From contig NC_135565.1 of assembly GCF_964340395.1 (NCBI RefSeq), positions 6,757,142 through 6,821,141 of the forward strand: DNA of 64,000 nt. The letters are read 5' to 3'. Of this stretch, positions 37,297 through 40,200 are shown piece by piece. The notes below the pieces were generated by a model that made no database searches, was not told the DNA's origin, and saw only the letters and a list, made by a program, of their open reading frames with translations. This stretch comes from Glandiceps talaboti. Taxonomy: Eukaryota; Hemichordata; Enteropneusta; Spengelidae. The position numbers were made by a program, and so were the translations under genes. The first letter of the stretch is position 1. Every line of letters starts with the position of its first letter.

Positions 37297-40200
37297 GAGA
37301 CAGACAACCAAACAAATAAAGGTGAAAACATAACCTCCGTCCAACCTTAATGGTGTATATAATAATTCGGGTGTTGTATGGTGTTCTCCGTGCCTCTAGG
37401 AAGAAATACGGGTCAATTATGATAAAATATGACGTATTTCAGTTCGTTTTGATAGGTTTACTCATAATTTTGTTTGGCCTGGCTTGGTTCTGATTGGCCA
37501 AGCTCGGCTTCTTAAGTTTTGTACCGTTCAGTTCGATTCCGGCGAAGGCTGACAACTGATACACAATGTTTGACACTAACACTATATTATCAAGTAAACT
37601 ACTCGTTTAATTAATGGAAAATATTGGATTATGAAATAATGAACTTTTCTTCTGATTTGGTTTTCACAGGTAGGCAAAGCTAAGACACCCGTTAAGACAG
37701 CGGCAGTCGTAAAGAGGACCTCACCAGCTAAGGAGGTCACCACCACTACTCCAACCATCACCACCACCACCACCACCACGAACAACAATGAGGCATTCGA
37801 TCCGAGTGAACTCCAAAAGGTATATATGACGTCAGAGCAGGATATGACGTACAATCAAATTAGGTTTACATACCATGGCCAGTTAAAATATTTAGAAAAC
37901 AAAATCATTGATCCATAAAACATTTCCTAAGCATGGTACTGAAATGTTGGAACAAAGTAAAAGCCATGTACAAAAACAATGAAATATAAGGATACATAAC
38001 AAAAACGTCAACACATTGATATAGTGTACTCAATCAACTTTGCACTATACATTCTGGGGATGTTTTCTTTTCGTTTCGTCCTAAACTTGAAAACTACTCT
38101 TCTGCTGACACGTGCAGAATTCTTGTAATAGTTCGGGATGGAACTAGGTGGTGGTATGTATGCATCATCATAATCATTATTAAAGAAAGTATAAGTAAAC
38201 ATATTCTTATAACATATTTTCTTTCTCTCTGACCGAACAGTTCATACTGGCGGATACAATGTCAGTCGTCCCATCTCTTGATCCCAGGGTATGGTGTCGT
38301 CTCTACCTTCTGGAGAAAACCAAAGCCATTGATGCGTTCAGTATTGGGTCTCCCACAGTTGTTGTGGATGGGTCGTCAAGGCAACAACGTGGAAGGTGAG
38401 TTTTGGTTCCTTGGTCTAATGTGGATCTTGTAAGTTGACCAGGATAAATGATGTGGAGAGTATTACATTCATATATGTGTTGATTTAAGGCAGTGCCCTC
38501 AACGACATATCTTTCATTCTATGCGAAATCAAGAAACTGCTCATTGAAGACAAAGATACATTACTGGTTACCATAGTTACATACTTACTCATTATTTGAA
38601 TATTTTCAGAATTGGATTCCAATCCCTATCCTATTCCAATGAAGATTCTCAATCGCAACGAATACGTACGTTTATTGGCAAAGGTGTACAGCTAGAGATG
38701 GATTCAGAAGGCCATGTATGGGCCACTAGACTAACCAAGAATGACGTATTTGTCAGGGGTTGGACTCGACCTCAGTATTGCTGTGTTTCCGCTGAGGTCA
38801 TCAAAAACGGCGGACGTCTGTTGTATGGCGAGGCGATGAAGGTAGGAGCACTTTAGCAATACAAATAGTTTCTTTTTTTAAATAGGTAATTCTGGAAACA
38901 AAATTGATAGGTAATATACTTTGATTAGCATATAGAAATGGGTCAGTCTCAAATTATAATGAATGTGATATTCAATTTAGAACAAAAAATATGGAACATA
39001 TACTCTGGTCGTTCTACGTCACGACAACGGGCGTCTATGTCATGACAAAGCGTGTCTACGTCACTGGTTCTGCTGTATTCGAAATGTGAGTCAAAACGTT
39101 CAAAATTGCCATTATTTTCCTGGACTTTTCTTTATGATATTACTGGTGCTGGTATACTACCGGAAAATACTTGAGACCTAAGGGTTGTCACTATTAGTCT
39201 ATCGACTCGTATTGACAAAGACCCCTTAGGTCACTCGTATTTTCCTTGGTTGAATGAAGAAAAATATTGGAGAATAATATCTGAATATAGTTGTCTCCAA
39301 ACACTTCTTCAAGTAAAGCTATAAATTAGTAAAAAAAAAATCAGTTGGCACGTTTATCTTTCTCTACACAGGTGTTTGATATGAATGAATTTATAGTACA
39401 TGTAGCAATGGAAGAAGAAAGATCAGGAAGCCATGATTTTATCAGACATCTATGTATCACATCGTTGAGTTTCATCAAGAACAGTGAAGATGACAAAAAG
39501 ACGCCATGTTGGATATCAATAGCTGTACTGCCAGCTCTAAGACAGAGAATGAGTGATCCAACAGGTAATGAAAATATGATATTATAAAAAGAAATGATTA
39601 AATTTAACAGGTAACATAACATTCATCTTGTCAAGTCATATGGTGGAACATTACAACTGTTACATGTCAAGTAAACTCCGATTAAATGTAGCTATGGATT
39701 ATGTCCTGTTTGTGCATCACACACATATGTAGAATACATACATATATTACTTTCTGATCTTCGCACACAGCTGATAGACCAAGTAATAACACCCGAATCA
39801 CTCTCATATCTCATATCTGACTCAACTTCTGTATGTACGTACCAGGATCACACTTGAACTTTAAAGGGAATTAGCTCAGACTACACACAGTGTTTAAAGA
39901 TCTACACTCGAGACGAAGGCAAGCACCCAGCATAGTGCCTCGTTCATTGACTTCCCGCGAAGCCAAGTCCTCTTGCCAAATCTGAAGTGCCTGTCAGTCC
40001 CCAGTGACCTTTATTGTGACGTCCTTAAAGTCTAAATATACATAACGCATGACCAATGGCCAAATAATCAATGCATTCCATATAGAGCTTTTCTGGGCGT
40101 GATCATGCCCTAAAAATATACTCAAAACATTGATAAATGATCACTATGAATCCTAGATATTTATGAAATGCAGACCGTCGTCTCATGTATTCGAGTATGC

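Follow-up and report, generated by a model that had tools for sequence, protein, structure and literature searches.

A myosin motor joined to an Expansion-like MH2 domain in a gene of the hemichordate Glandiceps talaboti

Does a single gene of Glandiceps talaboti join a myosin motor to an MH2 domain and, if so, what kind of MH2 domain is it and what might it do there? The question is raised by a window of 64,000 nucleotides (RefSeq assembly GCF_964340395.1, contig NC_135565.1, positions 6,757,142 to 6,821,141 of the forward strand), in which an earlier note had proposed that a frame of 25 exons runs from a myosin head through an IQ motif into an MH2 domain, all on one strand. We rebuilt this gene from the DNA at positions 24567-47707 of the window, on the + strand. 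All 24 of its introns are GT-AG, and its 25 exons form a single open frame of 1217 codons and a stop. A model made separately by NCBI, named "myosin-IIIa-like", is 100% identical to the rebuilt protein over 1217 amino acids, and motor and MH2 domain are consequently annotated there as one gene. The proposed frame is thus borne out, head, IQ motif and MH2 domain indeed share the + strand, and the gene model contains all three exon junctions that had been singled out for checking (36994/37670, 37819/38241 and 39564/43806). At the level of sequence, the fusion in one G. talaboti gene is confirmed.

The motor is complete, as had been claimed from the letters alone. Pfam Myosin_head (PF00063) covers residues 7-712 (E 3.2e-212), and the P-loop GESGTGKT, switch I and switch II (DIFGFE) are kept. 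Among solved structures, myosins VIIa and X match the head best by sequence, over approximately residues 5-549. The IQ motif that follows scores 11.2 bits, under the cut-off of 20.3. Neither a kinase nor an MH1 domain is among the ten Pfam families listed for the whole protein (E <= 1); sub-threshold matches to P-loop families and to Mucin were taken as noise.

The assignment of residues 839-1031 (exons 19-21) to MH2 also holds: Pfam PF03166 matches residues 855-1018 at 92.9 bits (E 3.5e-26), against a cut-off of 25. When the whole assembly was searched for MH2 in six frames, exon 20 alone scored 41.1 bits, above the cut-off, and the same search found a match in none of 14 control genomes. The assembly holds ten MH2 exon matches, which we assigned by reading their translations to four SMADs and the myosin gene; the SMAD types (Smad4, Smad1/5 and Smad2/3) are named here from general features of the family. 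The MH2 fold that was expected of the domain is present in the predicted structure of an orthologue, a 748-amino-acid short isoform from a sea cucumber that has both domains (P0013). In this predicted structure, a helix at residues 404-419 lies N-terminal to the sandwich. The structural match to Drosophila Expansion (PDB 4r9p) runs from residue 400 on, while most matches to SMAD structures start at residues 418-423 and two at 393-394. Precomputed Pfam also marks PF10401, which we take to be the IRF-3 domain, in five echinoderm proteins (P0003 and P0007-P0010), in keeping with a fold shared by SMAD, FHA and IRF domains.

The architecture is conserved in Ambulacraria. Eleven further full-length proteins (P0002-P0012) have both domains by precomputed Pfam, so that the search of related genomes urged by the earlier note was answered. 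Ten of them are from named ambulacrarians, namely Ptychodera flava and nine echinoderms (three sea stars, three sea urchins, a brittle star, a feather star and a sea cucumber). The eleventh, P0011 (1234 amino acids), groups with the sea cucumber in an MH2 tree (97/100) and is encoded on a contig of 4700 bases with little room for introns, which looks like a transcript. Counts of twelve below refer to these eleven and the G. talaboti protein, and exclude P0013. Homologue searches were limited to proteins of 0.55-1.75 times the query length (about 670 to 2160 amino acids), a range that excludes SMADs and other MH2 proteins of lesser length; the counts likewise leave out the MH2 myosins of lophotrochozoans, sponges and choanoflagellates and full-length Expansion and Rebuff. 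A rearranged profile search, with MH2 first and the Expansion domain included, returned P0001 and P0002 only among the best 8000 word-sharing candidates.

Which MH2 domain, then, does the motor carry? Compared as a single sequence with solved domains, it scores 64.5 bits against Expansion and 49.2 against the best SMAD. A profile of seven myosin MH2 domains that leaves Expansion out gives 113.8 bits for Expansion and 74.5 for SMADs in the PDB, and is used here since a profile containing Expansion would be circular for Expansion's own score. With all twelve myosin domains in the profile, Expansion scores 113.5 bits and the SMADs of this genome 77.3. The second-best match after Expansion is SMAD4. 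Conversely, Expansion as query gives 63-90 bits to the twelve myosin domains and 9-31 to the four SMADs. Matches to designed Pizza proteins in both PDB profile searches, and others near E 1 in the search that included Expansion, were taken as chance.

The loop L3, which in SMADs reads phosphorylated residues (PMC4388265), points in the same direction. The stretch from F[VI]K to P[CI]W that holds it is 8 residues long in all twelve myosins and in Expansion, against 14 in the four SMADs of the G. talaboti genome. In 12 of 12 myosins it is without Arg and has a net charge of -1 to -3; the Smad2/3 stretch likewise has a net charge of -1, but contains an Arg. By these comparisons Expansion is a closer match to the domain than any of the SMADs compared, and the domain belongs with the MH2 domain of Expansion, termed Nα-MH2.

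We therefore read the protein as the G. talaboti member of the class-80 myosins, with a short neck, no class III kinase and a domain of Nα-MH2 type, at a probability of about 0.9. Orthologues in both echinoderms and hemichordates are a feature of that class. Several points weigh against this reading. A profile of the four SMADs scores the twelve myosin domains at 58-78 bits and Expansion at 47, which suggests that the myosin domains are nearer to SMADs than Expansion is, and that Expansion is the more divergent. Further, a single Exp sequence, that of the solved domain, entered the comparisons. The fold model is that of a sea-cucumber orthologue with a mean pLDDT of 56.2 overall. The assignment to class 80 follows from architecture and clade rather than from a motor-domain tree, and Kollmar and Muhlhausen found similar lophotrochozoan proteins to be polyphyletic in motor trees (PMC5583752).

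We consider it most likely that the motor walks along actin bundles in protrusions or at the apical cortex, and that its MH2 domain serves as a constitutive docking tail that would carry or anchor a partner protein at such apical or protrusive actin. Docking would probably not follow the phosphoserine and trimer mode of SMADs, given the shortened L3 loop and an extra helix that is predicted to cover the face at which SMADs form trimers. A role as cargo adaptor is plausible; the constitutive-docking mechanism, taken alone, we would give even odds. About 190 residues lie beyond the MH2 domain and end in KEITQE, where the genome's own Smad1/5 and Smad2/3 have the C-termini SSMS and SSVS. The myosin tail also has two WA[KR] motifs (W1062 and W1199), which are present in all twelve full-length proteins and represent a second candidate binding site.

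The earlier note had suggested that the fusion, if real, would link actin-based transport to a TGF-beta-pathway fold, for example as a cargo or phospho-dependent adaptor. In a rival reading along these lines, the motor would tie actin transport to TGF-beta signalling, with the MH2 domain binding and moving phosphorylated SMAD tails or receptors. The domain does belong to the MH2 family, SMAD4 follows Expansion among its matches, and an intron between K and VFD, in phase 0, is common to the myosin MH2 and the genome's own Smad4. However, the L3 stretch is six residues shorter than in SMADs, acidic and devoid of Arg, the added N-terminal helix has been argued in Expansion to prevent trimers (PMC4388265), and Expansion and Rebuff, whose MH2 domain is of this kind, were reported to have no role in TGF-beta signalling. 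Loop and helix thus disfavour a SMAD-like function, and with the domain nearer to Expansion we consider both phosphoprotein binding and the TGF-beta link unsupported, and the latter very improbable.

An equally slim chance attaches to the idea that the motor works with a chitin synthase, by analogy with chitin deposition by Expansion and Rebuff and with the class-36 myosins that bear a chitin synthase. The closest solved domain is that of Expansion, loss of Expansion and Rebuff affects the apical chitinous matrix (PMC6176944), and lophotrochozoan MH2 myosins group near the class-36 myosins (PMC5583752). Yet an exon-by-exon search of the assembly for the chitin synthase family PF03142 gave no match at E <= 0.001, with one candidate scored; the same search matched 4 of 14 named control genomes, all four bacterial, and had no animal positive control. 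Finally, a false merger of adjoining genes by gene prediction can be set aside almost entirely, since eleven other full-length proteins, mostly of separate genomes, show the same long fusion, which is not expected of prediction errors, P0011 carries it on an apparently transcript-sized contig, and the class was described by the same architecture in 2017.

The preferred reading, an Nα-MH2-type domain on a class-80 myosin, invites a question of descent. A tree of 17 MH2 sequences sets the four SMADs apart from the myosins and Expansion at 100/100. In the same tree the branch to Expansion measures 3.21, and a branch that puts the myosins to one side occurs in 8% of 200 bootstrap trees; with so long a branch and such weak inner branching, the tree gives no order of descent between Expansion and the myosins. 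The intron shared with Smad4 fits common descent of the MH2 domain, though a single intron counts for little; the other MH2 introns read in Smad4, Smad1/5 and Smad2/3 do not coincide with the other intron of the myosin MH2. The Rebuff paper assigns to the Exp/Reb subfamily one C. elegans protein and also a human entry, "Mad homolog 3 isoform X1" (PMC6176944), and the human entry sits uneasily with the label "protostome-specific". We tentatively propose, at somewhat less than even odds, that Nα-MH2 is an old tail of MH2 myosins rather than a protostome invention, and that Expansion and Rebuff of ecdysozoans are its motorless remains or a spun-off tail. If so, insect regulators of chitin and apical matrix and a deuterostome motor would have docking at apical actin as a common function.

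By the present comparisons, an Expansion-type MH2 domain is placed on a deuterostome myosin. Should it be the same module as in Expansion and Rebuff, their Drosophila partners and apical localisation would become direct hypotheses for the class-80 myosin, and the question of MH2 origin, whether in myosins or in SMADs first, would gain a third branch for rooting. The G. talaboti gene confirms an MH2-bearing animal motor in a further hemichordate genome and counts against a TGF-beta interpretation of it. The exons are collected in Table 1.

Table 1. Exons of the rebuilt gene, in positions of the window, with the protein residues that they encode.
Feature	Position	Strand	Content
Exons 1-16	24567..36346	+	Residues 1-708: start codon and nearly whole myosin head
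Exons 1-8	24567-24671, 26435-26500, 27647-27874, 28498-28612, 29207-29354, 30162-30282, 30728-30845, 31592-31663	+	
Exons 9-16	32054-32192, 32714-32939, 33280-33450, 34042-34187, 34772-34858, 35203-35266, 35530-35735, 36235-36346	+	
Exon 17	36755..36994	+	Residues 709-788: end of head and single weak IQ motif (734-747)
Exon 18	37670..37819	+	Residues 789-838: linker rich in Thr/Pro/Lys, poorly conserved
Exon 19	38241..38395	+	Residues 839-890: N-terminal helix region of MH2 (helix from orthologue model) and first strands
Exon 20	38610..38841	+	Residues 890-967: middle of MH2 (FIGKGV, VFV)
Exon 21	39372..39564	+	Residues 968-1032: end of MH2 (VFDMNEF, LSFIKN, short L3 loop, TPCWIS)
Exon 22	43806..43885	+	Residues 1032-1058: tail after MH2
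Exon 23	44298..44466	+	Residues 1059-1115: conserved tail, first WA[KR] motif (W1062)
Exon 24	46811..46954	+	Residues 1115-1163: Ser-rich tail, low conservation
Exon 25	47541..47707	+	Residues 1163-1217 and stop: second WA[KR] motif (W1199)

Intron 21, of 4.2 kb, contains direct repeats at 39760-40300 and 42920-43460 that are identical at 541 of 541 bases and spaced by 3160; no open frame of at least 130 amino acids lies between them, and they probably represent a recent insertion or duplication. Elsewhere in the window, repetitive open frames on both strands at 14758-15601 resemble a tandem array. At 53550-54480, stretches that resemble one another occur in both orientations (e.g. CCGATGTAGATGTCGGCTAATCG); spotted by eye, they are perhaps a fold-back mobile element.

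The belief that no described myosin carries an MH2 domain proved mistaken. In 2014 Sebe-Pedros et al. described myosin III-like proteins with an MH2 domain from Sa. rosetta and O. carmela (PMC3942036), and in 2017 Kollmar and Muhlhausen named class 80 for myosins with a C-terminal MH2 domain, then restricted to echinoderms and hemichordates, alongside similar orphan myosins in lophotrochozoans (PMC5583752). The fusion is consequently not new, and the G. talaboti gene adds a further hemichordate case. Our literature search found no functional paper on class-80 myosins, and the text of Beich-Frandsen et al. 2015 makes no mention of myosin (PMC4388265). Searches for work linking the Expansion/Rebuff MH2 with myosin, or MH2 with myosin III and echinoderms, found none, judged by title in the case of Expansion and Rebuff, a weak negative confined to open-licence papers; those on chitin synthase with hemichordates, or on Kkv with rebuff, yielded nothing on this gene.

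Among known systems, class III myosins resemble the protein in its NCBI name, yet are characterised by an N-terminal kinase (PMC3942036), whereas the G. talaboti head starts at residue 7 with no kinase match. SMADs share the fold and Pfam family of the myosin MH2, but have the 14-residue L3 stretch in the four of this genome, no described N-terminal helix and a C-terminal MH2 domain; the long L3 loop with its site for phospho-residues is absent from the myosin, as is an MH1 DNA-binding domain among the families listed. The Nα-MH2 of Drosophila Expansion and Rebuff is the nearest solved MH2 domain by sequence and fold, alike in its short, divergent L3 loop and in the added N-terminal helix, packed on the sandwich, that is seen in the P0013 model. 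In Expansion and Rebuff the MH2 domain stands at the protein's N-terminus (PMC6176944), whereas in the myosin it is C-terminal to the motor, and no motor is described for Expansion or Rebuff in the literature examined. The MH2 myosins of Salpingoeca rosetta and Oscarella carmela, as we expand the genus names, likewise combine a myosin III-like motor with a C-terminal PF03166, a likeness drawn from their description. Closest of all are the class-80 myosins, which likewise have a myosin head with MH2 on its C-terminal side and occur in Ambulacraria; set against their published description, we found no difference, and G. talaboti is another hemichordate species to possess one.
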